From NCBI GenBank assembly GCA_016195095.1, contig JACQAE010000300.1, positions 1 to 40,465 on the forward strand: a stretch of 40,465 nt of DNA. The letters are read 5' to 3'. Shown piece after piece: positions 314 through 29,273 of this stretch; positions within the stretch are counted from its first letter, which is position 1; each line of letters opens with the position of its first letter. This stretch comes from Pseudomonadota bacterium. Its GTDB lineage: Bacteria; Pseudomonadota; Alphaproteobacteria; Rhizobiales; Xanthobacteraceae. Below the pieces are notes generated by a model. The model had not been told where the DNA came from and made no database searches. It saw only the letters and a list, made by a program, of their open reading frames with translations. The position numbers and the translations under genes were made by a program.

Positions 314-1669
314 GTGCGCATGGTCGCGGTTACCGGCGGATCCGGCCAGCTCGGCACGCTGATTGTGGAGCGGTTGGTTAATCGCCACGACGTCGATGTG
401 GTCGTTTCGATCGACGTCAAACCGCCCGGCATCGCGTCGGCCAAGCTGCGCGCCGTGCATGCGGACGTGCGCGACGGCGATCTCGCCCGCCACCTCGCCG
501 GCTGTTCGGCGCTGGTGCATTGCGCCTTCCTGGTCACCACGAACGCACCGGCGCCTGAATTCCGCGCCATCAATGTCGAGGGCAGCATCAACGTCTTCAC
601 GGCGGCGGCGGCGGCCGGGGTCATGACGATCGTGCATCTGTCCTCGATCATGGCCTATGGCTGCGTGCGCGGGCATCCGGTCCCAATCACCGAGGACGCG
701 GCGCGCGTCGAGCAGCCGGATTTTCCCTATGCGGCGTGCAAGTTCGCGCTCGAGGCCTATCTCGACCGGTTCGCGGCCGAACACCCGCACATCGCCGTCT
801 GCCGCATTCGGCCGAACGTACTGCTTGGGCGCGACGTTCCGCACGTGCTCGGCCGGCTCTTGCGCTACAACCTGGTGCCCGACTTGGATGAGGCTCCGCT
901 GCCAATCGTGGCCGACGAGGACGTCGCCGATCTCGTGCTGCTGGCGCTGGAGAAACGCGCGCGCGGCGCCTTCAATGCCGCGGCCAGCGACCTGCGTAGC
1001 GCGGACGAATTGGCGGCGGCGTTCGGGATGCACGTGCTGCGCATCCCCATGGCGCTGGTCTACCCTTACATGGCGCTTGACTGGGGTCTCAAGCGGATCG
1101 GATCGTGCCTTCCCTATGATGCCGCGTGGCTCACGCGCACGCGCGGCGTGACGCTCGTTGCCTCAAGCGCGCGCGCACGGGCCGAACTCGGTTGGCAACC
1201 GCGTTACCCGACGGCGGAATCGGTCCTGCGGCGGTTTCACGCGATCGCGCCGCGGCGCTTCGACCACGACTTGCGGCTGGCGCTGTGGCTATTGGCGCGC
1301 GCCGGCCGCCGGCCGGACGCGAGCCTTGCCGGGCAGGTGGCGTGCGTGCACCTGTGCGTCACCGGGCGCAACGGCGGCGACCGTTCGCTGCTCGTCGCGG
1401 ACGCGCGCGGTCGCGTCCTCGGCGGGCGCCCCGGCCATCCCACGAGCGCGGTGATTGTCGGCGCGGCTACGCTTGCGCACATCCTTTCGCGCCAAATCGA
1501 TATCGAGGCGGCGGCGCGCGAGGGTGCGCTGCGGCTGGAGGGTGACGCCGGGGGGCGCATTATTCTCGCCTGGCTGGTGGCGACCTTGGCCAGGCTCGCG
1601 GATGAGTCTGGACCGCGCGGCATTGCCGCGCGCGCGATCACGCGTCGGCTCGCCAAAGCAGGGGGTTGA
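314..1669 (+). CDS. NAD-dependent epimerase/dehydratase (extended SDR) with C-terminal extension
   Basis: Extended short-chain dehydrogenase of 451 aa starting at GTG 314 (ATG 320 is an alternative two codons in). The N-terminal Rossmann motif TGGSGQLG is at residues 7-14 and the catalytic Y-x-x-x-K pair is Y139/K143, with serines at 110-111 in the usual place. Enzymes of this family act on nucleotide-sugars, sterols or related alcohols; the substrate cannot be read from the sequence. The protein is about 120 residues longer than a typical epimerase. The extra C-terminal part (from about residue 330) has a weak resemblance to SCP2/sterol-binding-like domains, which would fit a lipid substrate, but that is an inference. 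The gene stands alone, between the partial gene and a converging desaturase. Confidence 0.8.
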   Translation: MRMVAVTGGSGQLGTLIVERLVNRHDVDVVVSIDVKPPGIASAKLRAVHADVRDGDLARHLAGCSALVHCAFLVTTNAPAPEFRAINVEGSINVFTAAAAAGVMTIVHLSSIMAYGCVRGHPVPITEDAARVEQPDFPYAACKFALEAYLDRFAAEHPHIAVCRIRPNVLLGRDVPHVLGRLLRYNLVPDLDEAPLPIVADEDVADLVLLALEKRARGAFNAAASDLRSADELAAAFGMHVLRIPMALVYPYMALDWGLKRIGSCLPYDAAWLTRTRGVTLVASSARARAELGWQPRYPTAESVLRRFHAIAPRRFDHDLRLALWLLARAGRRPDASLAGQVACVHLCVTGRNGGDRSLLVADARGRVLGGRPGHPTSAVIVGAATLAHILSRQIDIEAAAREGALRLEGDAGGRIILAWLVATLARLADESGPRGIAARAITRRLAKAGG

Positions 1670-1810
1670 CCCCCCACCATTGTGCCATGGAGCGTGCGCC
1701 GCGCTTGCGGCGCGGGATTAATCGAAATTAAATGGCGCCGCCGCGCCAAGGCATTGATCGACGCCTAATCATTCGTAAAACCTGCGGCTACTTTTGAGAA
1801 TCACGCGCGC

Positions 1811-1856
1811 GAGCATTTTCCGGCGAAGTGAGAACCTGTTCGCCGCGGAAAATGCG
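1811..1856 (+). repeat. 46-bp palindromic repeat, family B, copy 1
   Basis: Imperfect palindrome with arms GCATTTTCC and GGAAAATGC outside and GGCGAA/TTCGCC inside, around the core AAGTGAGAACCTGTT. It matches 37249-37294 at nearly every base and 29440-29485 in reverse orientation. It lies between the stop of the epimerase gene and the stop of the desaturase gene, so transcription from both sides would run into it and it could act as a bidirectional terminator. The family is common in intergenic DNA of Bradyrhizobiaceae relatives. Confidence 0.85.
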
Positions 1857-1909
1857 ACAAAGTCAAAGAAAATAGAGCGCCTTCCGGTTCAATTGAAATG
1901 GAAAAAGCT

Positions 1910-2995
1910 CTAAGCCGAGATGGCGTCGCTGCCCGGTCGTTGCAGGTGCTGGATATCACGCGCCGGCCGGCGCATGAGGAAACGCGCAACTTCGGTAAAA
2001 TAGCTTGGCGATGTGACCGAATGGTAGAGCGAATCCGCCGGCAGCGCGGCGGCGATGCGCCGATGCGCTCGCGCCATGTTGTGATAGGGGATGCTGGGGA
2101 AAAGGTGGTGCAGCGCGTGCAGGTCGAAGCCGAGCGGGGCCAATAGCGAGGTGACGACGCGATTGCGGGTAAAGTTGAACGAATCGAGGACCTGATCGAT
2201 TCGATTGCGCGCGTTTCCATCCGATTCGTAGCGGTGGCCGACCATGATGCGGATGCCGTGCAGGAAGAGAACGCACACAATCACCGCGTAGATGTGCAAG
2301 ACGGAGGTTACCGGCGCTATTCCCAATAGCAGACCCAAGCCGCAAACCAAGAGATAGAAAAAACAGGCAATTTCCTGGATGCGCCACACCCGACGCTCCG
2401 TCGCCGTCGGCGCCGTGCGTCGCGAAAGGCCAAGTATGCCCAGGCTCGACGCGCGCGTATCGACCCAGCGACGAATCCGCGGGCTTACCCAGGCGGCGAC
2501 GAGCAACCCGCTAAAGCGCGCGACGTAGATCAGCGGCAGAAGAAAGCTCGCCACGAATAAGGCGGCGGCGCCGCGCAGCCCGCGCAGGCGCGGGGGAAAA
2601 TACTCAACGTCATCGTAAGTGCCGAACGCCTCGTCGGAATGGTGGTTGCGATGGTCGGAATAAAGAAACGACGGAATGAGCAGCGGAATGCCGATGAGCA
2701 CGTTCCAGCCAATCTCGAAGCCCGGCATTCGGCGCCCATGATGCGAGAGTTCGTGATTGAAATAGGACGCCCGATAGAGCGCCAGCACCGCCACGAAAAA
2801 GCCGCCGATCGCCGCCGGCGAGCCTGAAAGGATCGCCCAGGGAAACGGCATCGACAGGTAAAGGCCGGCCGCGGCAATGACCACGCAGATCACGAGATCG
2901 GTCCAGAAAATCCCCGCGCGCGGCGTATGCAGGTCTCTTACCAGGTGCGTGAGCTCCCGGATGGGCAGACGATTCTCGATATAAGCACTGTCCAA
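1910..2995 (-). CDS. membrane fatty acid desaturase
   Basis: Integral-membrane di-iron desaturase. All three histidine clusters are present: HELSHH, HRNHH about 30 residues later, and a C-terminal HALHH followed by LFP. Hydrophobic segments sit between them, as in acyl-lipid/acyl-CoA desaturases, which insert a double bond into membrane fatty acids using O2. There is no ATG near the N-terminus. I place the start at TTG 2995 because a GGGGCGGA stretch lies just upstream; an in-frame TTG at 3049 would add 18 residues. The protein is about 361 aa. It may equally act on a carotenoid or another lipid, since the histidine pattern does not settle the substrate. It is a single gene, transcribed away from the hairpin at 3239. 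Confidence 0.85.
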   Translation of the reverse strand: MDSAYIENRLPIRELTHLVRDLHTPRAGIFWTDLVICVVIAAAGLYLSMPFPWAILSGSPAAIGGFFVAVLALYRASYFNHELSHHGRRMPGFEIGWNVLIGIPLLIPSFLYSDHRNHHSDEAFGTYDDVEYFPPRLRGLRGAAALFVASFLLPLIYVARFSGLLVAAWVSPRIRRWVDTRASSLGILGLSRRTAPTATERRVWRIQEIACFFYLLVCGLGLLLGIAPVTSVLHIYAVIVCVLFLHGIRIMVGHRYESDGNARNRIDQVLDSFNFTRNRVVTSLLAPLGFDLHALHHLFPSIPYHNMARAHRRIAAALPADSLYHSVTSPSYFTEVARFLMRRPARDIQHLQRPGSDAISA

Positions 2996-3346
2996 GGTTC
3001 CGCCCCGTGATTGCCGGCGGATGATGGCATCGCGGGCATGCGCGCACAAGCCGAACGATCATCGCCACGAAGGCGGGGCCGATATTCTCCAGCCGACGGG
3101 CTCGCGCGCTGTTGTGAATTCGAGCTGGCACGCAAGCGCGTGCCGCCTTATTCGAACCGGCGAGCATTCAATTCTTTTTTTTCTGACGCTTTTGGCGCGA
3201 CCAACCGGTGCTCCCGGTCGAAAAACATGCTCGTGGTGCGACCCAAGGCGATGGTCCGCATCGCTTTGGGTCGGTCGCCCGGGGACCGCATACGTTCGCG
3301 GGCCCACCCGCCCGACATTCGGCCATCAAATGTCAGGGTCAGGCCA
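2996..3346. other. intergenic region between desaturase and SDR
   Basis: About 350 bases with no convincing gene. It should contain the desaturase promoter, which I cannot pin down: an A/T-rich patch at about 3168-3190 is the likeliest place. It also holds the strong hairpin described separately at 3239-3273. Confidence 0.5.
3239..3273. terminator. 15-bp stem hairpin downstream of the SDR gene
   Basis: CGACCCAAGGCGATG (3239-3253) pairs with CATCGCTTTGGGTCG (3259-3273), leaving the loop GTCCG. Only one of 15 positions is a G-U type pair. Read on the minus strand it starts 74 bases after the SDR stop, and a TTTTT run follows about 13 bases later. It may be a terminator or a member of a dispersed palindrome family; the sequence alone does not decide. 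Confidence 0.6.
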
Positions 3347-4042
3347 CTAGATGCGGCCATAGACCGGCACGATCGCCCCGCGCGTAACGGCGTTCGTTGG
3401 CGAGGCGAGAAAAAGAATGCTGCGCGCGATTTCGGTGGGGTCCGGCCAGGCTGCATGATCGGCGTTGGGCATATCGCGGCGATTGGCGGGCGTATCGATC
3501 ATCGAGGGCGCGACCGCGTTGACCAGAATGCCATGTTTGGCGACTTCCTCGGCGAATGCGACGGTAAAGGCGGCGACCGCCGCCTTCGCCGCGGCATAGG
3601 CCGCCATGCCCGCGCCCTGCCGCCATTCCAGCGCCGGACGCGCGGCGACATTGACGATGCGTCCGCCACCGGCGGTCATGGCATTCGCCGCCGCGCGGCA
3701 GCACAGAAAGCAGGTCATCAGGTTCATGTCGATGAGCCGCGCGAGGTCGTCCTTGCGCGCGCGCGCGACCGGTCCGAAGGCAAAGCCGCCGATGAGGTGG
3801 ATCGACGCCCAGAGCCGTGGCACGCCGGCGTAAAGCCGCGCCACCGCCGCTTCATCCGCCATGTCGCCCTCGGCGACGAGACGTACGCGCGCGTCGTCGC
3901 CGAGCGCGAATGCCGCTCGTTCCGCGGCGTCGACCCAGGGCACGTGGCAAACCGCGCCGGCCGCGACTAGCGCGCCGACGACGGCGCTCCCCAGCGCCCC
4001 GGTTCCCCCGGTCACAACGACGTGTCGGCCGCCAAATTCCAT
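3347..4042 (-). CDS. short-chain dehydrogenase/reductase, atypical active site
   Basis: Classical SDR of 231 aa with the cofactor motif TGGTGALG at residues 11-18, N107 in a MNLM context and the catalytic Y149-x-x-x-K153. The serine normally found about 13 residues before the tyrosine is absent: the stretch reads NVAARPAL rather than NVSS. The enzyme may therefore be inactive, or use another residue. I chose ATG 4042, since GGGGCGGG lies upstream; ATG 4069 would add 9 residues with no ribosome site. It is divergent from glpD, with 116 bases between the two starts. Substrate unknown. Confidence 0.8.
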   Translation of the reverse strand: MEFGGRHVVVTGGTGALGSAVVGALVAAGAVCHVPWVDAAERAAFALGDDARVRLVAEGDMADEAAVARLYAGVPRLWASIHLIGGFAFGPVARARKDDLARLIDMNLMTCFLCCRAAANAMTAGGGRIVNVAARPALEWRQGAGMAAYAAAKAAVAAFTVAFAEEVAKHGILVNAVAPSMIDTPANRRDMPNADHAAWPDPTEIARSILFLASPTNAVTRGAIVPVYGRI

Positions 4043-4158
4043 GCCCGCCCCGTGGCGCCACTGTCCCATGGACAAGGGGGGCGTTGCAACTCTGCACTTG
4101 AGCCATGGCCCGCCGGCACGCGATGCTGCAGGCGCGGCGGGAATCAGGCGGAGGCGCC

Positions 4159-5655
4159 ATGGCCGAGTTCGACCTTGCGATCATCGGTGGCGGCGTCAAC
4201 GGCGCCGGCATCGCGCGCGACGCGGCCGGACGCGGGCTGAAAGTCCTGCTGGTCGAGCAGCGCGACCTCGCCTCGGGCACGTCGTCGGCCTCGACCAAGC
4301 TCATTCATGGCGGGCTGCGCTATCTTGAGCACGGCGCGTTACGGCTGGTGCGCGAGGCGCTGATCGAGCGCGAGGTGCTCCTGCGCATGGCGCCGCATCT
4401 GGTGCGGCCGTTGCGTTTCATCCTGCCGGTGGAGGAGGGCGGCCGCGCCGCCTGGATGCTGCGGCTCGGCCTGTTCATTTACGACCACCTCGGCGGTCGC
4501 AAGATCCTGCCGCCCTCGCGCGCGCTCGACCTCGCCGGCCACCCGTTCGCGCATCCGCTGCGCCGGCGCTACGTATCGGGATTTGAATATTCCGACTGTG
4601 CGGTCGACGATGCGCGCCTCGTTGTGCTCAACGCGCTCGACGCGGCCGAACGCGGCGCTGTCATCCGCACGCGCACGCGCTGCGTACGCGCGGAGCGCGC
4701 GCGGGACTGGACGCTGGTGCTCAACGCGCGCGGCCGGCGCGAGGAAGTCACGGCACGGGTCCTCGTCAATGCCGCAGGCCCCTGGGTCGCGCAGGTGCAT
4801 GAGAACGTGCTGCGCCTCGGCGGGCGCTGCCCGTTGCGGCTCGCCAAGGGCAGCCATATCGTGGTGCGCCGGCTGTTCGATCACGCCGCCGCCTACCTGT
4901 TCCAGGGGCCAGACCGGCGCGTGGTTTTCGCGCTGCCGTTTCTCGACGATTTCACGCTGATCGGAACCACCGACGTGGACTTCGACGCCGACCTCGACAT
5001 GGTCGCGCCGTCGGCCGAGGAGATCGAATATCTGTGCCGCATGGTCAATACTTACCTGCGCGAAACGGTGATGCCGGCGGACGTGGTGTGGGCGTATTCC
5101 GGCGTGCGCGCGCTCTATGACGACGGCAATAAGCGCGCCGACGACGTGACGCGCGATTACATGATCACGCTCGATCGCCCGTTCGGCGCGCCGCCGCTGG
5201 TGACGGTTTATGGCGGCAAGATCACGACCTATCGGCGGCTTGCGGAATCGGTCATGGCGCGCATCGCGGATTTTTTCGTCTGCGGCCCAGCCTGGACGTC
5301 GGGAACGCCGCTGCCTGGCGGCGATTTTCCCCATAACGGGGTCGAGCGTGAATGCGCGCGCGCGTGCGAACGCTGGCCGTTCCTCGCGCCGGCGCAGGCG
5401 CGCCGGCTGGTCGCGAGCTACGGCACGCGCATTGCCAGGGTGCTCGGCGACGCGGCGTGCGCGGCCGACCTCGGCCAGGATTTCGGCGCCGGGCTGACGG
5501 CCGCCGAAATCGGCTATCTCATGCGCTGCGAATGGGCGCAGACGGCTGACGACGTGTTGTGGCGGCGCGGCAAGCTCGGGCTGTTGCTGAGCGCGGGCGA
5601 ACGCGCCGCGCTCGACCGGCATATGACCGACGCCGCCCGCGCGCCGGCGGGATGA
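4159..5655 (+). CDS. glpD: aerobic glycerol-3-phosphate dehydrogenase
   Basis: FAD-dependent membrane-associated enzyme that oxidises sn-glycerol-3-phosphate to dihydroxyacetone phosphate and passes the electrons to quinone. At 498 aa it has the usual length (about 500). The FAD-binding motif GGGVNGAG is at the N-terminus, followed by the family segment [19 protein letters not shown], with KGSHIVV, the GTTDVDFD segment and [14 protein letters not shown] further on. ATG 4159 is chosen because GGCGGAGG lies directly before it and the Rossmann strand begins there; an upstream ATG at 4105 has no such site. It is followed after 14 bases by glpK, so the pair makes a glycerol-use operon. No glpF or glpR is seen in the window. 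Confidence 0.95.
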
Positions 5656-5669
5656 ATTCGGAGCGGGGC

Positions 5670-7169
5670 ATGGCGAAAACGCATCTATTGGCCATCGATC
5701 AAGGAACGACGTCGACGCGCGCCATCGTGTTTGACGCAGCGCTCGCGCCGATCGCCTCCGAACAGCGCGAATTCGCCCAGATTTTTCCGGCGCCGGGTTG
5801 GGTCGAGCACGATCCCGAGGAAATCTGGGCAAGCGTCCTTGCGACAGCGCGCGCGGCGCTGGCGCGCGCAGACCTCACCGCAGGCGACATCGCCGCCATC
5901 GGCATTGCCAACCAGCGCGAGACGACGCTGGTATGGGACCGCGACAGTGGCCGACCGCTGCATAATGCCATCGTTTGGCAGGACCGCCGCACCGCGCCGG
6001 CCTGCGATGCATTGCGCGCCGAGGGCCATGAGCCGCGGGTCACCGCCACGACCGGGCTGTTGCTCGATGCCTATTTCTCCGCGACCAAGCTCGCCTGGAT
6101 TCTCGACCACGTCGAAGGTGCCCGCGCCGCAGCCGCGCGCGGCACGCTCGCCTTTGGCACGATCGACACTTTCCTGCTGTGGCGGCTGACCGGCGGCAAG
6201 GTGCACGCGACCGACGCTACCAACGCCGCGCGCACGCTGCTGTTCGATATTCACCGCGGCGCCTGGGACGACGACCTTGCGCGCCTATTTGCCGTTCCCA
6301 CCGCGCTGCTGCCGGACGTGCGCGATTGCGCTGGCATGTTCGGCGTCACCGATCCGGCGTTGTTCGGCGGCGCCATCGCGATCCGCGGCGTTGCCGGCGA
6401 TCAGCAGGCGGCGACCATCGGGCAGGGTTGCTTCGCGCCCGGCATGCTCAAATCGACCTATGGCACTGGCTGCTTCGCGCTCCTCAATACCGGGGCGACG
6501 GCGGTCACCTCGCGCCGGCGGCTGCTCACCACAATCGCCTACCAGCTTGACGGACGGCGCACCTATGCCATCGAGGGCTCGATCTTCATCGCCGGTGCCG
6601 CGGTGCAGTGGCTGCGCGACGGCCTCGGCCTGATCCGCGAGGCCGCGCAAGTGGGCGAGCTCGCGGCGCGGGCCGATCCGCACGATCAGGTCTACCTCGT
6701 GCCCGGCTTCGTCGGCTTGGGCGCACCGTGGTGGGACGCATCGGCGCGCGGCGCGATCTTCGGGCTCACGCGCCAGTCCGGTCCCGCCGAAATCGCGCGC
6801 GCGGCACTCGAAGCGGTCGGCTATCAGACCCGCGACCTGATCGAGGCCATGCATGCCGATTGGCCGGCGGCGGCCGATGCCGGCACGGTGCTGCGCGTCG
6901 ATGGCGGCATGTCGGCGAGCGACGCGGCGATGCAATTCCTCGCCGATATCCTGGCCGCGCCGGTCGAGCGTCCGGCGGTCAAGGAAACGACCGCGCTGGG
7001 CGCCGCCTATCTCGCCGGGCGCGCGGCGGGACTATGCCCCGAGCCGGACACCTTTGCCGCGCGTTGGAAATGCGAACGACGATTCTGCCCGCGCATGGAC
7101 GCGGCGACGCGCGCGCGTAAATGGAACGGCTGGCGGGACGCGGTGCGCCGCACGCTGAGCGGGGATTGA
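5670..7169 (+). CDS. glpK: glycerol kinase
   Basis: FGGY-family kinase that phosphorylates glycerol with ATP to glycerol-3-phosphate, the substrate of the upstream GlpD. It has 499 aa, close to the 502 of E. coli. Family landmarks are [13 protein letters not shown] at the N-terminus, [18 protein letters not shown] and the C-terminal [21 protein letters not shown] 5670 is preceded by GGAG at a good distance; ATG 5652, which overlaps the glpD stop, would add six residues. The G-K-G-G-T-R loop that forms the fructose-1,6-bisphosphate inhibitory site in E. coli GlpK is not present (the region reads FGGAIAIRG), so that form of feedback is probably missing. Confidence 0.95.
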
Positions 7170-19285: not shown

Positions 19286-20089
19286 TCAATCCACACCGTA
19301 TTGCTGGACGTGCGGGGCCATGGCGATTTCGGCGATGAGTTTATTGAGCACGGCGCGCCCGAAGGACTCGAAGTTTTCCGCCACCATGACAAAGGCGCCG
19401 GGCCCGCCAATGACCTGATCGCGATAATACTTGGCGAGCCCGCCGGGTGGATTGGTGTGTTCGGGGTTCCACGATAGCGGCCGGTCGCTGAGGATGACAA
19501 GGCCGTTGATGGTCACGCCCTTGGCCAATGCCTCGTCGCGCGCGGCGGCGACGTCGCGCCCGGAATTGTTAGTGCCGTCGCCGGATACATCGATCGTGCG
19601 GCGGCGCGCCGCATAGGGCGCGCGCTCGAATTGCTCCATGGCAAATTCGATGCCGCCGCTGATCGACGTGCGGTCGGCGAATGAGCGCGGCGCTTCGACA
19701 AGCTGATCGCCGAAGCGTCGCGCGCTGGCATCGTCGTCGATGACGGTCCAATCAATGACAAGCTTGCGCGAGCCGGCGCCCGACCATTCCAGGTAGCACA
19801 CCGCGATGCGCGCGCGCGGACCAGAGCGAACCGCGGCGAGGACGCGCGGGTCGGCGATCGCGGCGGCATAGCCCTCGCGCTGCAACTGGAATTTGCGCGC
19901 GTCAACGCTGCGCGACACGTCGGCGGCGAGCACGAGGAGAAGGTCCACGGGCTCCGCCGCGCGGACGGGGCTGGTCAGCAGGACCACCACCGTGGCGATG
20001 AGCGCGGCGATGGTTGCGGATATGGCCGTGGCGGTCGGTGCCGCGATGACTTTAGCGATGATTTTGGCGATTGGTCCGATGGCGGGCAT
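19286..20089 (-). CDS. DUF1194 von Willebrand-like exported protein
   Basis: Protein of 267 aa from ATG 20089, with an N-terminal hydrophobic segment (ATIAALIATVVVLLTSPVRAA) that looks like a signal peptide or anchor. The domain that follows has the metal-site pattern of a von Willebrand A fold: D-V-S-R-S in strand one, a threonine in DRTSISGG, and DVSGDGTNNSG. This composition marks DUF1194, a family found in alphaproteobacteria whose function is unknown. It follows the repeat-rich gap at 20.1-20.8 kb and precedes the dehydratase gene with a stop/start overlap or near-overlap. Confidence 0.85.
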   Translation of the reverse strand: MPAIGPIAKIIAKVIAAPTATAISATIAALIATVVVLLTSPVRAAEPVDLLLVLAADVSRSVDARKFQLQREGYAAAIADPRVLAAVRSGPRARIAVCYLEWSGAGSRKLVIDWTVIDDDASARRFGDQLVEAPRSFADRTSISGGIEFAMEQFERAPYAARRRTIDVSGDGTNNSGRDVAAARDEALAKGVTINGLVILSDRPLSWNPEHTNPPGGLAKYYRDQVIGGPGAFVMVAENFESFGRAVLNKLIAEIAMAPHVQQYGVD

Positions 20090-20154
20090 TGCAATGGCGT
20101 CCCGGGCGTGCGCCGGGACGCGCACTCGCACCCCGGTCGCGGAGTTACATTAGA

Positions 20155-20803: not shown

Positions 20804-23800
20804 CTAGGCGCCCGCCGCCGCGTGGAAGGTCACTTCGACCAGCGTTCCATCATCGGCTCTACTTGTGATGCGCAATCGGCCCCGGTTAGCCTGCGCGAGC
20901 GCGCGCGTCAGCGGCAGGGTGAGCGTGCCGTTGGCCGGGGTGGTATCCGCCATCCTGCGCGTCGGTTCGAGCAGCGCCTCGATCTGGTCCCCCTTGAGGC
21001 CGCCGCCGCTGTCGCGCACCCGTAGCACCACGCCGCCCTCGTCGCACGCGGCGGTCGAAACGATGACCTGGCCGCCGCTGCCCGCCGAGGCGATCGCGCC
21101 GGCGATAAGGTTTGCCACGATCTGGCGCACCGAGCGCGCGTCGGCCATGACCGGCGGCAGCCCCGCGGACGGTGCGGCGCGGATGATGACGCGCTCGCGG
21201 CTTGCTTGCGGCTGGACTTGGGCCACGCATTCGCGCACGGCGGCGTTGAGATCGAGGCTGGCGAAGGACAGATCGAACCTGCCATTCTCGATGCGCGACA
21301 AATCAACGAGCTCGTTAAGCAGCGTGACGATCGTCTCGCCCGCGGCGCGAATATCGCGCAGATAGGCTTGAATTTGCGCTTCGCCGCCCGCCGACAATTT
21401 CTCGTCGAGCAAGATTTCGGCCATTCCGGTGATCGTGTTGAGCGGCGTCCTGACGTCATGGCTCATGCGGGCGAGAAATTCGGCCTTGGTCGTGGCCGCT
21501 TGTTCGGCAGCGCGGCGCGCGCCGGCGAGTTCCGCGTCGGCATGCTTGGCCTGCGTGATGTCGCGCAGGAGGGCACCGATTTTCGTCCCGCCTTCGCCAA
21601 TGCGAACGAGCGACATGAGAACCGGCACGACGCCGCCATCGCGGTGGCGGGCCACGAGTTCGCGTGCTCCCTTGCCGGTATTTTCGGCGCTGCCCTCGCG
21701 CATTCGCGCCAGCAATTCGGTGGCGACGCGCCGGCTTTCCGGCGTAAACAGCGCGATCAGCGGGTGCTGCGCCAATTCGCCCGCGCCATATCCGAACAGC
21801 AATTCCGCGCGCCGATTGGCGCTCGCGATGCGCTCGCCATCGTCAAGCACCAGGGTGCCGTCGCTAGTGGTGTCGAGGATGGCGCGCAAATCGCGAATTT
21901 CGTCCTGTGCCTGGCGCAAGGCAGCGTCGCTCGCGCCGACGCGGATGGAGGCCGGCGCATGTACCACGACAAGGGCCAGCGCCGGCTCGCCGTCGAACGG
22001 AATGGAGATGAGCCGGCCCTGCAAGGGGGTGCTCGCGCCCTGAGGCGTGGCCAGCGCAAAAGCGCGGCCGTCGCCTTCGCTATTGGCGTCGGGCTCAATA
22101 AACAGGCCGTCGAGCCCGCCGGCTTCGGTGATGGCTTCGAGGCTGCGATAGCCGGTCCAGTCGAGAAACACCCGGTTTGCATGGAGGAGCTTGTCCAGCC
22201 GGTAGACGAGAATGCCGACTGGAAGCCGGTCGATAAGCGCGCGATGATCCGCGCTCGCTTCACGCATCGGCGCTGCGTCCGTGTTCGCTGCGGTTATTCC
22301 GCGCAGGTCGGCTGGCGCTGGCGAACCGCGCTCACTCGGATTGCGTAGCCGCGCGGAGAGCTCGCGCGCGAGTTCGTGGAACGCCTTGCGTTCGACCGGG
22401 CTGAGCGCCGGCGCCTTCGTCTCGGCGGCCAAAACGGGGACGCGGAACGGCACGACGTTCTCTGGCATCGTCTTGAGCGCCGGCGGTTCGTCGTTGCGCG
22501 CGGCATTGGGTATTGGCGCGGTCGGCGCGCCGGGCGGCGCCGGCGCAGCAGCATCGGTGGGGGCGGTTTGTGGCTCGTCCGCAGGGCCCGGCGTTTGCGG
22601 GGCGGCGGGGCACGCTTGCGGCACCGGTGCCGCGGTGTTGCCAGCGTCCGCCGCGATCGCGCCGCCGCGCCGTGCCGCAAGGATCACGGCTATTCGTTCG
22701 CGATCACGGCAGACGCCGAAGCCGCGGTAGCCAAGGAAAGTCCGCTCGCGGTCAAAGATCGGCAGGCCGGAAAGTTCGACCTGCAGCCGTTCCGTGCTGT
22801 CATCCACGGGGCAGGCGATGGCGATGCCGCTCCACGTGTCGCGGCGCGTGACCGCGCGCATGACGTCGTCGCTTGGATCGAGCCCCAGCGCGGCGGCGAT
22901 CTGCGGCCAGGGGCGGCCGAAAGCGGTCGCGGTGCGCGGGCCGATCAATTCGACGAATTCCTCCGAGGACAGCGAAAATCGTCCCTCGGCGTCCATCTGC
23001 CAGGCAAATCGCAATGCAGGCGCCGGCCGGGCAACCTGCAAATCCAACGGTGCCGGCGCGTTCGCGGCAGGCGCCGATTGCGTCGCCGCCTCGCCGTCCG
23101 GCACGGGCGCGGCGGACGGCGGCGCGGCCGAGGCGGCAAGCGCAACAGGCACGAACGCATCATCGCTCGCTGGCGCCGGTTGCCGCCGTGGCGGCGAGAA
23201 ATCCACCGCCAGCACGCTGGTCGCGTCGGCGCCAAGGCGCAGGATGACGACCGGGCCAAGTGTCGATTGTCCTTCGCTTCGCCCATGCGCGATCGCCGTG
23301 CGCGCCAGCGCTTCGATCCCGATATCCGCCAAGGACTGGGCGCGGCCGAGCAGGCGCGCGCCGGCCGCGGTCGCGTGAATGCGCCTGCCGTCGGCGGCGA
23401 AGGCGGCGATCGGCGCCTGCGTCTGCGCCAGCACGCGCAGGACGCGCTCATCGAGGCGCAGCGCCGGCCCGGCATTCTCGCGGGCAATGATGAGGATAGC
23501 GGCGCTGTCATCGCCAAGCGTGACGAGCGCGCAGGAACACAGAAGCAATCGGCCCGCGTCGGCACCGAAGCCGCGCAGCCGTTCGAGCCGCGCCGTGCCG
23601 GACGTTGGCAGCGTCGCAGCCAACCGCAGCACGTCGCTTACCGCCGGGTCGTCGCGCGTAAATCGCCGCGCCTGGCGCGCGCCCGGCTCGGCCAGCCGCG
23701 ACATCGCCGCCGCGATGGGGTTGGCCCAAAGCAGCCGGCTCGCGTCCACGCTCCATAGCCAGGCCGGCGCCAAGGCCGTCGCCAGCGCCGCTATGCGCGT

Positions 23801-23839
23801 ATCGTGCAGGTAATCGCGTTCGTCGGAAGTCGCTGTCAT
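20804..23839 (-). CDS. multi-PAS sensor histidine kinase with degenerate ATP-binding domain
   Basis: Protein of about 1011 aa from ATG 23839, no obvious membrane segment. In order: an N-terminal PAS-like region, further PAS domains, a Pro/Ala-rich linker (about residues 420-530), two more PAS domains (around RALIDRLPVGILVYRL and RAILDTTSDGTLVLDD), then HisKA and a CA domain. The phospho-acceptor is H794 in MSHDVRTPLN. The architecture resembles PleC/PdhS-like cell-cycle kinases of Rhizobiales. The CA domain is abnormal: the N-box reads NLIAG, so the second Mg-binding Asn is G914; the G1 box keeps D943 (RDSGGGL); the G2 box, normally GTGLGL, is GTLTL (971-975). It may therefore not bind ATP and could act as a phosphatase or scaffold. 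It is a single gene upstream of the repeat-rich gap. Confidence 0.85.
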   Translation of the reverse strand: MTATSDERDYLHDTRIAALATALAPAWLWSVDASRLLWANPIAAAMSRLAEPGARQARRFTRDDPAVSDVLRLAATLPTSGTARLERLRGFGADAGRLLLCSCALVTLGDDSAAILIIARENAGPALRLDERVLRVLAQTQAPIAAFAADGRRIHATAAGARLLGRAQSLADIGIEALARTAIAHGRSEGQSTLGPVVILRLGADATSVLAVDFSPPRRQPAPASDDAFVPVALAASAAPPSAAPVPDGEAATQSAPAANAPAPLDLQVARPAPALRFAWQMDAEGRFSLSSEEFVELIGPRTATAFGRPWPQIAAALGLDPSDDVMRAVTRRDTWSGIAIACPVDDSTERLQVELSGLPIFDRERTFLGYRGFGVCRDRERIAVILAARRGGAIAADAGNTAAPVPQACPAAPQTPGPADEPQTAPTDAAAPAPPGAPTAPIPNAARNDEPPALKTMPENVVPFRVPVLAAETKAPALSPVERKAFHELARELSARLRNPSERGSPAPADLRGITAANTDAAPMREASADHRALIDRLPVGILVYRLDKLLHANRVFLDWTGYRSLEAITEAGGLDGLFIEPDANSEGDGRAFALATPQGASTPLQGRLISIPFDGEPALALVVVHAPASIRVGASDAALRQAQDEIRDLRAILDTTSDGTLVLDDGERIASANRRAELLFGYGAGELAQHPLIALFTPESRRVATELLARMREGSAENTGKGARELVARHRDGGVVPVLMSLVRIGEGGTKIGALLRDITQAKHADAELAGARRAAEQAATTKAEFLARMSHDVRTPLNTITGMAEILLDEKLSAGGEAQIQAYLRDIRAAGETIVTLLNELVDLSRIENGRFDLSFASLDLNAAVRECVAQVQPQASRERVIIRAAPSAGLPPVMADARSVRQIVANLIAGAIASAGSGGQVIVSTAACDEGGVVLRVRDSGGGLKGDQIEALLEPTRRMADTTPANGTLTLPLTRALAQANRGRLRITSRADDGTLVEVTFHAAAGA

Positions 23840-24331
23840 CGCTATCGAACTTTGCCGGCGCGCAGCGCGCGGCTGCATGGTCAACAAATTCTTAAGTGCC
23901 GCCGGCCGGTGCGTCCACGCATCCCGGCGGCGAAACGCACACAACCGGTGGCTAACCTTAATCGTCCGCTCGCAGCCTAGACCGAAAGGATTATTGTGCA
24001 GTGCAATATTTTCTATTGCATTGCACTAGAATTCGATGTATTTTTTATCGCAATGAAGCTGCCGGTTAATCCGGCGATGACGCGCATTTTTTCGACGAAA
24101 CGGACACCGGTTCGCCACAGAAACGCGCTAAACATCGATGCTGGAGCGCATTTTGATCAGGATAACCTCGTCCGCGCAGGCGTTTATGCGCTGCCGGGGC
24201 GGCTGGTCGGCTTAGGCCATCCACTGCGTTGGATGTGCTCTTGCAGCAATTTCAATCGCGACCCCGGGCCGACAGCAAGGGCGGCAGGTTCGGATGTCCT
24301 GATAATGGTGCCGCCCCGAAGGATGAGTGCC
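23840..24331. other. divergent intergenic region, kinase/phasin
   Basis: About 490 bases with no gene. A forward frame is open back to 23996, but only the part from 24332 looks like phasin and the rest has no protein-like content. The region holds the palindrome at 23996-24026 and a locally A/T-rich stretch (about 23990-24055) where the promoter of the phasin gene probably lies. Confidence 0.5.
23996..24026. promoter_or_regulatory. palindrome upstream of phasin, possible PhaR operator
   Basis: GTGCAGTGCAATA (23996-24008) and TATTGCATTGCAC (24014-24026) are inverted repeats with one mismatch around TTTTC. The TGCA-rich arms recall the TGC/GCA sites bound by PhaR, the polyhydroxybutyrate repressor that controls phasin genes in alphaproteobacteria. 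It lies about 300 bases before the phasin start. That PhaR binds here is inference from the context and the motif type. Confidence 0.5.
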
Positions 24332-24811
24332 ATGGAAGACGTGAACGCGAACAAAAAGACGACGCGGCGGCAGGAAGCAACCGGTGCGTTCGAGATGCCG
24401 AAGTTCGAGATGCCGAAGATGGAGATCCCCGCGGCGTTCCGCGATATCGCCGAAAAGGGCGTGTCGCATGCGAAGGAAAATTACGAGAAGATGAAAGTGG
24501 CGGCCGAGGATGCAACCGACCTGCTTGAGAACACGTTTGCAACCGCGAGCAAGGGTGCGGCCGATTATGGCGTCAAGGTGATCGAGGCGGCGCGTGTGAA
24601 TACCAACGCCGCGTTCGACTTCGCCTCCGCCATGTTGGGCGTCAGGTCGCTGTCGGATATGGTCGAAATCTCGACCACGCACATGCGCAGCCAGTTCGAG
24701 GCGATGCATGCGCAGACCAAGGAGCTTACCGCGCTGGCGCAGCGGGTTGCGACCGACACGGTCGAGCCGGTCAAGGACGGCGTCAACAAGGCGTTTCGCA
24801 AGGTCGCCTGA
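24332..24811 (+). CDS. phasin family protein
   Basis: Granule-associated protein of 159 aa that coats polyhydroxybutyrate granules. The typical Rhizobiales N-terminus is present, with the repeated EMPKFEMPKMEIP at residues 21-33, followed by AAFRDIAEKG and AKENYEKMK. The rest is a long amphipathic helix of the phasin_2 type. ATG 24332 follows GAAGGA at 8 bases; ATG 24323 would add three residues. A strong terminator follows at 24852, so the gene is probably monocistronic. Related genes here: scoAB for acetoacetate activation. Confidence 0.92.
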   Translation: MEDVNANKKTTRRQEATGAFEMPKFEMPKMEIPAAFRDIAEKGVSHAKENYEKMKVAAEDATDLLENTFATASKGAADYGVKVIEAARVNTNAAFDFASAMLGVRSLSDMVEISTTHMRSQFEAMHAQTKELTALAQRVATDTVEPVKDGVNKAFRKVA

Positions 24812-24992: not shown

Positions 24993-25069
24993 GCAGCTGT
25001 AGCTCAGTTGGTTAGAGCGCCTGACTGTGGATCAGGAGGTCGGTGGTTCAAGTCCACCCAGCTGTACCA
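24993..25069 (+). tRNA. tRNA-His (anticodon GTG)
   Basis: A 77-base cloverleaf with encoded CCA. Acceptor arm GCAGCTG pairs with CAGCTGT; the anticodon arm is CCTGA-CTGTGGA-TCAGG with GTG at 34-36; the T arm is GGTGG/CCACC around TTCAAGT. The base before position 1 is T, so there is no templated G-1, and the discriminator is A73. This is the form described for tRNA-His in Rhizobiales and related alphaproteobacteria, in contrast to most bacteria (G-1 and C73). Confidence 0.96.
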
Positions 25070-25540: not shown

Positions 25541-26938
25541 ATGTCCACATTCGATAACCCGTTCGATCCCGCGCGGCATCTGAATTCATCCGGTTGTTCC
25601 TGCGGGCGGCATGCGAGCCAAGCCGAGCATGCGCGCGACCTGCCGGCGCAGACGCAAGCACACGAACTTGCCGCGAGCGACGACAAGCGTTTCGAGACGG
25701 TCGTGGCGTCGGCCGTCATGCGCAAGCTGTTCCCGCGCGACGCCGCGCGGCGCGCATTTCTCAAGTCGCTCGGCGCATCGACCGCGCTTGCCGCGATCGC
25801 GCAATTCTTTCCGCTCAAAACCGCGACGGAAGTCTTCGCCCAGGGCGGTCCGATCGAGAAGAAGGACCTCAAGGTCGGGTTCATTCCGATCACCTGCGCC
25901 ACCCCGATCATCATGGCGCATCCGATGGGCTTCTACGCCAAGCACGGGCTCAACGTCGAGGTGATCAAGACCGCCGGCTGGGCGGTGGTGCGCGACAAGG
26001 CGCTCAACGGCGAATATGACGCCGCCCACATGCTCTCGCCGATGCCGCTCGCGATCACCATCGGCGCCGGCTCGCGCCCGATTCCCTACACCATGCCGGC
26101 GGTGGAAAACATCAACGGCCAGGCCATCACGCTCGCCATGAAGCACAAGGAGCGGCGCGATCCGAAGTCGTGGAAGGGCTTCAAGTTCGCGGTGCCCTTC
26201 GACTATTCGATGCACAATTCTCTGCTGCGCTACTATGTCGCCGAGCACGGCATCGATCCCGATCAGGACATCCAGATCCGCTCGGTGCCGCCGCCGGAAA
26301 TGGTCGCCAACCTGCGCGCCGAAAACATCGACGGCTTCCTCGCGCCCGATCCGGTCAACCAGCGCGCGGTCTATGACGGCGTGGGCTTCATCCACATTCT
26401 CTCCAAGGACATCTGGGACCGCCATCCCTGCTGCGCCTTCGCCGCGTCGAAGGATTTCGTCACCACCATGCCGAATACCTATGCCGCATTGCTCAAGGCC
26501 ATCATCGACGCGACCGCGTTCGCCGCCAAGCCGTCCAATCGCAAGCAGATCGCGCAGGCGATCGCGCCGGCGAACTACCTCAACCAGCCGGTCACGGTGG
26601 TCGAGCAGGTTCTCACCGGCACCTTCGCGGACGGGCTCGGCAAGGTGCAGGTGGTGCCCGACCGCATCGACTTCGACCCGTTCCCGTGGGAATCCTTCGC
26701 CGTGTGGATCCTCACGCAGATGCATCGTTGGGGCCAGATCAAGGGCGACGTGGATTATGCCGGCGTCGCGCGCCAGGTGTATCTCGCGACCGACACCGCC
26801 CGGCTGATGCGCGAGGTCGGGCTCACCGCGCCCACGGCGACGAGCAAGACGTTCGTGGTCATGGGCAAGACCTTCGACCCCTCGCGGCCGGAGGAATACG
26901 TCAAGAGCTTCGCCATCAAGCGCGCGGTGAAAGCGTGA
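25541..26938 (+). CDS. NrtA/CmpA-family binding protein, Tat-exported, of the cyanate operon
   Basis: Periplasmic substrate-binding protein of 465 aa, of the nitrate/bicarbonate/cyanate type. The twin-arginine signal is at residues 70-75 (RRAFLK) followed by a hydrophobic stretch, but it is preceded by an unusual 69-residue leader with the motif CSCGRHASQAEH (C19, C21, H24, H30). After cleavage the mature part starts near residue 100 with the core VGFIPITCATPIIMA and later segments such as VPFDYSMHN and FLAPDPVNQRA, as in NrtA. ATG 25541 follows GGAG at 9 bases. Its stop overlaps the permease start (GTGA). The substrate is inferred to be cyanate because of the cyanase gene downstream; nitrate or another anion cannot be excluded. 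Confidence 0.87.
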   Translation: MSTFDNPFDPARHLNSSGCSCGRHASQAEHARDLPAQTQAHELAASDDKRFETVVASAVMRKLFPRDAARRAFLKSLGASTALAAIAQFFPLKTATEVFAQGGPIEKKDLKVGFIPITCATPIIMAHPMGFYAKHGLNVEVIKTAGWAVVRDKALNGEYDAAHMLSPMPLAITIGAGSRPIPYTMPAVENINGQAITLAMKHKERRDPKSWKGFKFAVPFDYSMHNSLLRYYVAEHGIDPDQDIQIRSVPPPEMVANLRAENIDGFLAPDPVNQRAVYDGVGFIHILSKDIWDRHPCCAFAASKDFVTTMPNTYAALLKAIIDATAFAAKPSNRKQIAQAIAPANYLNQPVTVVEQVLTGTFADGLGKVQVVPDRIDFDPFPWESFAVWILTQMHRWGQIKGDVDYAGVARQVYLATDTARLMREVGLTAPTATSKTFVVMGKTFDPSRPEEYVKSFAIKRAVKA

Positions 26939-27774
26939 CGTCCTCGCTCGGCCTGCGCGCCGCCGTCGTCTCGGTCGCGCTGTTTGCCATGTTCGTCACC
27001 GCCTGGCATCTGGCCACGCGCGGCACCGGAGTCGTGGCGCAGCTTGACCCGGAATACGCCAAGCTCATGGGTGCGACCGCGACCCAGGGCAAATCGGCGA
27101 TGCCCGGCCCGCTCGATGTCGGCGCCAAGCTGTGGGAGCACGTGCGCCGGCCGTTCTACGACAACGGTCCCAACGACAAGGGCGTCGGCATCCAGCTCGC
27201 CTATTCGATCGTGCGCGTCGCCATCGGCTATTTTGCCGCGGTGCTGGTCGCCGTGCCGATCGGCTTCATGATCGGCATGTCGCCGCTCCTGAGCCGCGCC
27301 TTCGACCCGTTCATCCAGGTGCTCAAGCCGATCTCGCCGCTCGCCTGGATGCCGCTCGCGCTCTACACGATCAGGGATTCCGGGCTTTCCGCGATCTTCG
27401 TGATCTTCATCTGCGCGCTGTGGCCGATGATGATCAATACCGCGTTTGGCGTCGGCAGCGTGCGGCGCGAGTGGCTCAACGTCGCGCGCACGCTCGAGGT
27501 CGGCACGCTGCGGCGTGCGTTCACGATCGTTCTGCCGGCCGCCGCTCCGACCATACTCACCGGGATGCGCATTTCGATCGGCATCGCCTGGCTGGTGATC
27601 GTCGCCGCCGAGATGCTCGTGGGCGGCACCGGCATCGGCTACTTCGTTTGGAACGAGTGGAACAATCTCTCCATCGCCAACGTCATCACCGCCATCCTCG
27701 TGATCGGACTGACGGGCATGGTGCTCGATCAAATCCTCGCGCGCCTGACGCGCCTCGTGACCTTTCCGGAGTGA
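26935..27774 (+). CDS. ABC transporter permease of the cyanate operon
   Basis: Inner-membrane permease of the NrtB/SsuC family, 279 aa from GTG 26935. There are about six membrane segments and an EAA-type loop (LNVARTLEVGTLRRAFTIVLP) that contacts the ATPase, with the terminal GGTGIGYFVWNEWNN typical of the family. It starts four bases before the end of the binding-protein gene and ends 6 bases before the ATPase gene, so all three are translated together. Confidence 0.9.
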   Translation: MTSSLGLRAAVVSVALFAMFVTAWHLATRGTGVVAQLDPEYAKLMGATATQGKSAMPGPLDVGAKLWEHVRRPFYDNGPNDKGVGIQLAYSIVRVAIGYFAAVLVAVPIGFMIGMSPLLSRAFDPFIQVLKPISPLAWMPLALYTIRDSGLSAIFVIFICALWPMMINTAFGVGSVRREWLNVARTLEVGTLRRAFTIVLPAAAPTILTGMRISIGIAWLVIVAAEMLVGGTGIGYFVWNEWNNLSIANVITAILVIGLTGMVLDQILARLTRLVTFPE

Positions 27775-27780
27775 GCCGCG

Positions 27781-28695
27781 ATGCCGGGCGACGGATTCAT
27801 CTCGATCGAGGGCATTACCAAGCGCTTCGCCGCGCCTGGAGGTGGCGTCACCACCGTTTTCGAGGACCTGTGGCTGGCGATGCGGCGCGGTGAGTTCGTG
27901 TGCATCATCGGTCATTCCGGCTGCGGCAAGACGACGGTGCTCAACATCCTCGCCGGGCTCGACACGCCCTCGCAGGGCGCGGTGATCGTGGACAACCAGG
28001 CAATTGAGGGACCGAGCCTCGACCGCGCGGTGATCTTTCAAAGCCACGCGCTATTGCCGTGGCGCAGCGTGATGGGCAACGTCGCCTATGCGGTCGCCTC
28101 GAAATGGCGGCGGCGCTCGCATGCCGACATCGCCGCGCAGGCGCAGAAATTCATCGATCTCGTCGGGCTCTCCGGCGCCGAGGCCAAGCGGCCCGCCGAG
28201 CTTTCCGGCGGCATGAAGCAGCGCGTCGGTATCGCGCGCGCCTTGTCCATCGAGCCCAAGATCATGCTCATGGACGAGCCGTTCTCCGCGCTCGACGCGC
28301 TCACGCGCGGCACGCTGCAGGACGAGGTGCGCCGCATCTGCCTGGAAACCGGGCAGACGGTGTTCATGATCACGCATGACGTCGATGAGGCCATCTATCT
28401 CGCTGACCGCATCGTGCTGATGACCAACGGTCCCGGCGCACTGTTCGCCGAGATCGTCGAGAACCCGCTGCCGAAGCATCGCGGCCGCAACGACCTGCAC
28501 AAGCACCCGCGCTACTATGGCGTGCGCAACCACATCATCGATTTTCTCGTCGCCCGCTCCAAGACCTTCGCCGAGGAGATTGGGCCGGGCGGCTTTGACC
28601 GGCGCAATGTGCCGCTGGTACGGCCGGGCGCGATCGAGCCGCCACGCGTCGCCGCCGAGACGCCGCCGGCGCGGGTCGCCGCCGCCGCGCGCTGA
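27781..28695 (+). CDS. ABC transporter ATPase of the cyanate operon
   Basis: Cytoplasmic ATPase of 304 aa, NrtD/SsuB type. Walker [10 protein letters not shown] is at 44-52, [14 protein letters not shown] carries the Q-loop region, the signature LSGGM is at 141-145, Walker B DEP at 165-167 and the switch histidine H199. The C-terminal 50 residues form a Pro/Ala-rich tail absent from most NrtD. Together with the binding protein and permease it makes a complete importer feeding the cyanase. Confidence 0.92.
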
Positions 28696-28784
28696 TATTC
28701 GAGCCTATGGCACCAATTTCGGCGGTGTTGGCCGTGGCGCGAGGCACGAGCGTTCACCGCAACGACATGAGCAGGGAGACGACC

Positions 28785-29273
28785 ATGAAACGTTCCGACC
28801 TCACGGAGAAAATCCTCGACGTTAAGCGCGAGAAGGGTTGGACCTGGAAACATATCTGCGGCGAAATCGGCGGCTTCTCACCGACGCTCATCGTCGGCGC
28901 GCTGCTTGGCCAGATGAAGCTGACCAAGCCGCAGGCGGCCAAGGCGGCCGAGCTTTTCGCGCTGAGCAAGGCGGAGGCGGCGATGCTCAACGAGGTGCCG
29001 ATGCGTGGTGCCGGCGTGGCGATGCCGCCGAGCGATCCGCTGATCTACCGGCTCTACGAACTGGTCATGGTCAATGGCCCGGCGCTCAAGGCGCTGATCG
29101 AGGAGGAATTCGGCGACGGCATCATGTCGGCGATCGATTTCGACATGACGATCGAGCGCCAGCCCGACCCCAAGGGCGACCGCGTGCGCCTGGCCATGTC
29201 CGGCAAGTTCCTGCCCTACAAATATTACGGCGCCACCGGCAATACCGCGCAGTACGGCTTCAAGGAGGATTGA
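28785..29273 (+). CDS. cynS: cyanase (cyanate hydratase)
   Basis: Converts cyanate and bicarbonate to ammonia and CO2, releasing nitrogen. It has 162 aa; the catalytic residues R89, E92 (IYRLYEL) and S115 (GIMSAIDF) align with R96, E99 and S122 of E. coli CynS. ATG 28785 has a GGGAG site 7 bases upstream; an in-frame ATG at 28767 would add six residues. The C-terminus runs about 16 residues past the usual end (after KFLPYK). It is the last gene of the operon, 89 bases after the ATPase gene. No cynT carbonic anhydrase, which often accompanies cynS, is seen. Confidence 0.95.
   Translation: MKRSDLTEKILDVKREKGWTWKHICGEIGGFSPTLIVGALLGQMKLTKPQAAKAAELFALSKAEAAMLNEVPMRGAGVAMPPSDPLIYRLYELVMVNGPALKALIEEEFGDGIMSAIDFDMTIERQPDPKGDRVRLAMSGKFLPYKYYGATGNTAQYGFKED

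Follow-up and report, generated by a model that had tools for sequence, protein, structure and literature searches.

A PdhS/CbrA-type histidine kinase homologue with altered ATP-binding boxes, and a constrained sister clade, in one alphaproteobacterial family

The window analysed here is the whole 40,465-nucleotide stretch of contig JACQAE010000300.1 (assembly GCA_016195095.1, Xanthobacteraceae). On its minus strand lies a pdhS/cbrA-type gene (20804..23839), whose product is called the focal protein below. The plus-strand reading of 20804-23839 is interrupted by stops; the open frame is on the minus strand. Translation is more likely to start at the ATG at 23839 than at the TTG at 23944, because several homologues start at that Met in the N-terminal alignment. 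Residue numbers follow the open reading frame (ORF) from the TTG; those of an earlier note on this DNA were ATG-based and equal the ORF number minus 35. By its sequence, the focal protein is a soluble multi-PAS histidine kinase homologue of the large PdhS/CbrA type. Its PAS, HisKA and HATPase_c domains all score above the Pfam cut-offs, and PdhS is by far the top NCBIfam model (438 bits, E 6.7e-131). This score lies below the 2000-bit cut-off of the PdhS equivalog NF041593, as do those of the three relatives tried (L018, 672; L013, from the 48-sequence clade described below, 580; L036, from the same order, 625). The gene and its parts, including the dimerisation and histidine phosphotransfer (DHp) and catalytic and ATP-binding (CA) domains, are as follows.

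20804..23839, minus strand: pdhS/cbrA-type gene, 1011 aa from the ATG (1046 aa from the TTG at 23944)
23480..23767, minus strand: PAS-like domain A, N-terminal (AlphaFold2 model, limits by eye)
23201..23458, minus strand: PAS-like domain B (AlphaFold2 model, limits by eye)
22706..23017, minus strand: PAS-like domain C, with all ten invariant columns of the N-terminal alignment (alignment and model, limits by eye)
21566..21892, minus strand: PAS domain adjoining the kinase core, residues 685-793 (Pfam PF00989)
21281..21487, minus strand: HisKA/DHp domain with H829, D830 and T833 intact (Pfam PF00512)
21458..21460, minus strand: phospho-acceptor His829 (ORF translation, alignment)
21368..21403, minus strand: DHp loop, EKLSAGGEAQIQ replacing ERFGPxGNERYx (alignments)
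20819..21142, minus strand: HATPase_c (CA) domain, fold kept in the model, lid modelled without confidence (Pfam PF02518)
21089..21112, minus strand: N-box NLIAGAIA, Asn949 to Gly and Lys952 to Ala (alignment)
20996..21013, minus strand: G1 box DSGGGL, D and both G kept (alignment)
20960..20962, minus strand: F-box Phe replaced by Thr995 (alignment)
20912..20932, minus strand: G2 box NGTLTLP, all three glycines replaced (alignment)

An AlphaFold2 model of residues 36-480, built from 44 sequences, contains three PAS-like folds. Its mean predicted local distance difference test (pLDDT) score is 82.7, and most blocks inside the folds reach about 90 or more. The best Foldseek matches of this model are PAS proteins, with low whole-model template modelling (TM) scores of about 0.2-0.3.

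The kinase core was compared with its orthologues at ten ATP-pocket landmarks. At a threshold of 1e-50, 121 of the 149 family genomes gave long matches to the focal protein, and the landmark table holds 132 orthologues, from 117 of these 121 genomes and from 15 genomes of the same order (24 searched, 15 matched, all 15 used). Outside the table stand G014, which was read separately, G067, G093 and G151; the G093 core (L185) has a canonical G2 box. In the focal protein six landmarks differ from the canonical residue: Gly replaces the second N-box Asn (position 949) and Ala the N-box Lys (952), Thr995 stands in place of the F-box Phe, and Asn, Thr and Thr occupy the positions of the three G2 glycines. 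The other four, N945, D978, G980 and G982, are unchanged. The N-box thus reads NLIAGAIASA, against NLLSNSIKFT in most relatives, and the G2 box NGTLTLPLT, against GGTGLGLPLT; the ungapped LPLT anchors the latter alignment. All ten landmarks are intact in 54 of the 56 rows from the rest of the family, the other two having one broken, and in all 15 same-order rows. Neither the second N-box Asn nor the third G2 Gly is missing from any row of either set. One landmark is broken in three of seven rows of genus g3 and in three of five of genus g10, and none in the remainder of either; rows of the 48-sequence clade have between one and seven broken.

The DHp domain has changed in another way. H829, D830, T833 and P834 match most canonical rows, with D instead of E at 830, and D830..T833 reads as a putative HisKA phosphatase motif (E/DxxT/N after the His). 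An (F/Y/L)G...Y loop, usually ERFGPxGNERY, occurs in 130 of the 131 other rows and is missing here, where EKLSAGGEAQI stands instead; L121, from genus g8, is the sole other row without it.

Most of what the earlier note had read from the letters holds against this table, and the CA-domain alignment with homologues that it proposed as a check confirms the residue losses. The normal MSHDVRTP H-box is there, its histidine (H794 in that numbering) being His829; so are the Gly at 914 (Gly949) and the non-canonical GTLTL, now part of a wider lesion that takes in Lys952, the F-box Phe and the DHp loop. Kinship with PleC/PdhS-like kinases agrees with the best NCBIfam model, and a pseudokinase-like character, with the H-box kept and ATP-pocket residues lost, is what the six changed landmarks suggest. 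Its statement that related kinases have canonical boxes is right for most relatives and wrong for the 48-sequence clade within the same family.

A GxGxG(L/M/F) or NLxxN(A/S) motif was sought in every frame of the region and none was found, which rules out ATP boxes hidden in another reading frame. G+C content at third codon positions (GC3) is 0.86 in the CA domain and remains of the coding type across all domains. Chance or a simple assembly slip is excluded: many codons are altered, the frame that holds them is uninterrupted and coding in its composition, no motif lies out of frame, and the replaced N-box Asn and third G2 Gly are invariant in the rest of the family and in the same-order rows.

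Kinase activity has very probably been lost, judging from these replacements. The opposite view, that the protein is still active as a kinase because its ATP pocket tolerates the changes, would draw on the conserved G1 Asp and glycines, first N-box Asn, H-box and fold. It would have to accommodate the joint replacement of the Mg-binding Asn, the N-box Lys, the F-box Phe and three G2 glycines, where an active kinase should have intact N, F and G2 boxes. DivL, described as a weak binder of trinitrophenyl-ATP (TNP-ATP; 57 uM) that has no autokinase activity even as Y550H alone (PMC4211667), also speaks against this view, which we consider very improbable.

Orthology of the compared loci is supported by their surroundings, because the two genes that flank the focal gene also flank relatives' loci: among 53 such loci longer than 4.4 kb, DUF1194 was matched in 15 and the phasin gene in 22.

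19286..20131, minus strand: DUF1194 gene, conserved downstream neighbour (Pfam PF06707)
23996..24811, plus strand: phasin gene, conserved neighbour, true start probably inside the ORF (Pfam PF09361)

A tRNA-His(gtg) lies near the phasin gene (24993-25069). Fourteen family genomes (G001, G004, G006, G008, G013, G018, G021, G064, G070, G074, G080, G083, G096 and G105) gave only weaker, mostly core matches, some from residue 245 or about 466 on, and full-length PdhS may be absent or very diverged in them. An N-terminus-only PdhS in G070 was considered and rejected, as the contig ends there.

Whether the focal lesion shares an origin with that of the 48-sequence clade depends on the trees. A quick LG+G4 tree places the focal protein inside a 60-row starred group, and mixture-model trees place it without resolution among mostly canonical lineages; in the mixture-model tree, g10 and 23 sampled rows of the 48-sequence clade group together without it (97/89). 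Common residues of that clade are missing from the focal protein, which has Pro1011 (Ser in 41 of 48) and no His at 952 (His in 38 of 48). All 14 of its best core matches, in a wider core search with matches in 195 genomes, carry GTGLGL. This last point says little, because by median identity the focal protein is almost equally close to the rest of the family and to the clade (48 and 48% in DHp, 51 and 48% in CA). A separate origin is favoured by these comparisons, and only favoured, since an approximately unbiased (AU) test does not reject focal protein and clade as one group (p 0.78); the constrained tree stands 11.9 log units above the quick free tree.

Evolutionary rates were taken as branch lengths re-fitted on a fixed tree and expressed as distance from the family root for 114 rows; L117 was too short for the tree, and two rows were left out of the PAS part. 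The N-terminus of the focal protein is ordinary (1.03, against a median of 1.11 in the rest), whereas its DHp (1.20 against 0.22) and CA (1.60 against 0.37) have evolved about 4-5 times faster than those of canonical relatives. Its CA/N-terminus ratio of 1.56 is the top of the 114 rows (0.21-0.86 in the rest, 0.65-1.12 in the 48-sequence clade). Its DHp/N-terminus ratio of 1.17 is high and not the top; the clade reaches 2.00.

The 48-sequence clade spans 13 genera and is well supported (Shimodaira-Hasegawa approximate likelihood-ratio test 100 in the quick LG+G4 tree; 100/99 for the 23 sampled rows in the mixture-model tree). The third G2 Gly is replaced in all 48 sequences, the N-box Lys/Arg in 39 and the second N-box Asn in 16. 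The His is kept in 46, with single replacements by Gln in L112 (genus g67) and Arg in L121 (genus g8). All 48 have an acid next to it at +1, and 15 lack the Thr at +4, to which phosphatase activity is linked. Loss of ATP binding in this clade is a prediction from the boxes, less certain than for the focal protein because D978 is present throughout and the N-box Asn in many rows. One of the genera is probably Bradyrhizobium: PutA of G024 (genus g25) aligns ungapped over 666 residues (1355 bits) with PDB 6bsn and 3haz, which we take to be PutA of Bradyrhizobium japonicum.

Selection was gauged by omega in hand-picked pairs inside genera (13 from the clade, 11 canonical including one g3 pair, 3 from g10), with some rows used in two pairs. 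Median CA omega is 0.055 in the clade (highest 0.344), 0.102 in canonical rows and 0.365 in g10; the DHp medians are 0.044, 0.054 and 0.341. The CA domain of the clade is maintained under strong purifying selection, and its low omega despite the lost G2 Gly means that, in this family, a CA domain can remain useful after alteration. The g10 copy looks relaxed. Four of its five rows (L050, L052, L094 and L103) have Gly at the acid position beside the His (GHGLR), with nearly intact ATP boxes and weaker constraint.

Two other altered copies were seen. In L167 (G014, genus g15; frame 1014-4004, plus strand) the His is gone, as are the second N-box Asn and G2, while ERFGPIGNERY remains; the PAS domain before DHp found no match in it. 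L169 (G062) is a shortened orthologue of 717 aa, without a match to residues about 260-450 or to the kinase-adjacent PAS.

The rates raise the question of whether the focal copy is simply relaxed and on its way to becoming a pseudogene rather than repurposed. The CA/N-terminus ratio, the highest of all rows, and the lost DHp loop are what such decay would produce, and g10 offers a precedent for weaker constraint in the same family (0.22-0.58 over DHp and CA in its three pairs). Against decay of this kind stand a frame intact across 1011 codons, an N-terminus evolving at the usual rate, coding GC3 in every domain and two neighbours conserved in relatives, and it is regarded as improbable.

A repurposed core finds its closest parallels among solved structures. 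The DHp-CA core model has a mean pLDDT of 81 and is predicted to retain the CA fold despite the lost boxes; its ATP-lid residues 196-207 fall below 50. Among the best 50 Foldseek matches, RetS of Pseudomonas has the top TM-score (6dk8_A, 0.79/0.86, 29% identity), ZraS comes first by E-value, and DivL (4q20) is also present. RetS is the closest solved relative by sequence as well (4e-28). Like the focal protein it keeps its H-box (SHEIRTP) beside altered ATP boxes; in RetS the alterations take in the N-box, where the first Asn is gone, G1, where the second Gly is gone, the whole F-box and part of G2. The likeness is therefore in kind and not residue by residue, because different residues are lost. 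RetS is a hybrid kinase of another bacterial class with another sensor, and the resemblance is at most convergent. Its transmitter is described as kinase-off, targeting GacS in mixed dimers, where it blocks autophosphorylation, siphons phosphate and dephosphorylates the receiver (PMC12189002, PMC11330419).

DivL of Caulobacter, a pseudokinase of the DivK-CckA relay, offers a second comparison. The earlier note had called the focal lesion the opposite of that of DivL. This is right in that DivL has Tyr for His and a weakly ATP-binding CA, whereas the focal protein keeps H829, the residue whose replacement marks DivL, and has lost its CA boxes; as a kind of lesion it is not new, since RetS keeps the His with altered CA boxes. 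ChpT and Spo0B also keep the His beside a degenerate Bergerat domain, and differ in being small dedicated phosphotransferases without PAS arrays. DivL is reported to bind TNP-ATP weakly, to show no kinase or phosphatase activity and to stabilise DivK~P, and its Y550H form to be labelled when DivK~P and ATP are supplied together (PMC4211667). A ChrS with a frameshifted CA is reported to increase output from HrrS, its partner, by a direct or an indirect route; contact by the truncated form was not seen in that study (PMC9491836).

Nearer relatives by description are CbrA of Sinorhizobium meliloti, PdhS of Brucella abortus and PdhS1 of Agrobacterium tumefaciens, which, like the focal protein, are large and have no membrane part (PMC3577659). 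For CbrA, the published account is of a DivK kinase that S. meliloti needs for symbiosis (PMC11500502), whereas the focal protein is without the ATP boxes and the DHp loop. The N-terminal domain of B. abortus PdhS is reported to bind FumC and the C-terminal domain DivK (PMC2957392); the constrained N-terminus of the focal protein might, by analogy, serve partner recruitment. No account of a PdhS or CbrA orthologue lacking its ATP boxes appeared among the open-access papers listed, as judged from titles and abstract openings, with subscription journals largely outside; the single listed paper that contains both PdhS and pseudokinase concerns cancer signalling.

The explanation placed first, with confidence a little short of even, is that the focal protein is a PdhS/CbrA-type orthologue acting as an ATP-independent modulator by protein contact. 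Its CA would still fold without binding Mg-ATP productively, and no autophosphorylation would follow. The PAS array, still constrained, would presumably continue to sense or localise. The DHp-CA part, as a dimer or mixed dimer, would bind either DivK~P or one of the genome's intact PdhS-family kinases (DivJ-like or PleC-like) and change the activity of the bound partner, as with DivL and RetS. Action by contact rather than catalysis is less sure than the loss of kinase activity.

The genome leaves room for such a role. It has 19 HisKA matches, including the focal protein, 17 of them above the Pfam cut-off, and a simple pattern scan found a readable G2 box in 15 of the 18 other HisKA proteins and none in L156, L158 and L159; the L156 frame stops 71 residues past the match start. 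DivJ-like (L144), PleC-like (L145) and CckA-like (L154) kinases and ChpT (Pfam PF10090) are present, so the relay need not use the focal protein as a kinase. The three kinase labels are given for the resemblance of the H-box regions to those of DivJ, PleC and CckA.

Several observations weigh against modulation by contact. The DHp loop, which presumably docks DivK, is gone where 130 of 131 other rows keep it, so that DivK binding by the focal copy is doubtful. H829, D830 and T833 are retained, as a phosphatase or phosphotransferase would require, and the G1 box and the first N-box Asn have also survived. Three residues lost from the focal protein, namely the second N-box Asn, the N-box Lys and the third G2 Gly, are still present in RetS. 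The omega pairs cover the 48-sequence clade, canonical rows and g10, and selection on the focal CA lies outside them.

The retained residues lead to a further possibility, a phosphatase-only (or phosphotransferase) PdhS, in which kinase activity is lost and His829, Asp830 and Thr833 dephosphorylate a regulator such as DivK. This reading draws on PdhS2 of A. tumefaciens, which is reported to work mainly through a predicted phosphatase: predicted kinase-null H271A complements, predicted phosphatase-null T275A fails, and the authors consider the phosphatase dominant, by overexpression (PMC7003649). PdhS2, however, is described as a small membrane kinase, unlike the large soluble focal protein (PMC3577659). 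The Thr at +4 is, moreover, free to vary where the ATP boxes are altered: of the 51 rows that lack the third G2 Gly, 15 have lost this Thr, compared with 1 of the 80 rows that have the Gly, through at least 11 changes on the 131-row tree. The focal DHp itself evolves at about five times the canonical rate and has lost its loop. Retention of the three residues is weak evidence, because the DHp is at a median of only 48% identity to the rest of the family. An exclusive phosphatase thus seems unlikely, if still worth weighing beside modulation by contact.

For the family as a whole, a wider proposal is put forward tentatively, as possible and short of probable. The CbrA/PdhS kinase of this one alphaproteobacterial family would have turned, perhaps repeatedly, into a stable pseudokinase: in the ancestor of the 13 genera (probably with Bradyrhizobium), and again in the focal genus and in g15. 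The 13-genus form would be a second DivL-like reader of DivK~P; in it the altered CA and the DHp are strongly constrained, the DHp loop is kept and the phosphatase Thr is drifting.

Elsewhere in the window, the stretch 25541-29273 holds nitrate/sulfonate-type ABC transporter parts and then cyanase (cynS), together a cluster for the uptake of cyanate or nitrate. An FAD-dependent oxidoreductase with a glycerophosphate-oxidase C-terminal domain stands beside an FGGY kinase, glpD/glpK-like (4105-7169).

A retained His with an altered CA appears, by comparison with RetS, to be a lesion of a type already known. Of greater interest is the sister clade, which has an altered G2 box and is nevertheless constrained. 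A constrained CA clade with a lost ATP box is a natural series for non-catalytic CA roles. If ATP is unusable for the CbrA relatives in this large group (probably with Bradyrhizobium), the CtrA relay would be wired differently there in its upstream half, and models taken from S. meliloti, Brucella or Agrobacterium would misfit that group.

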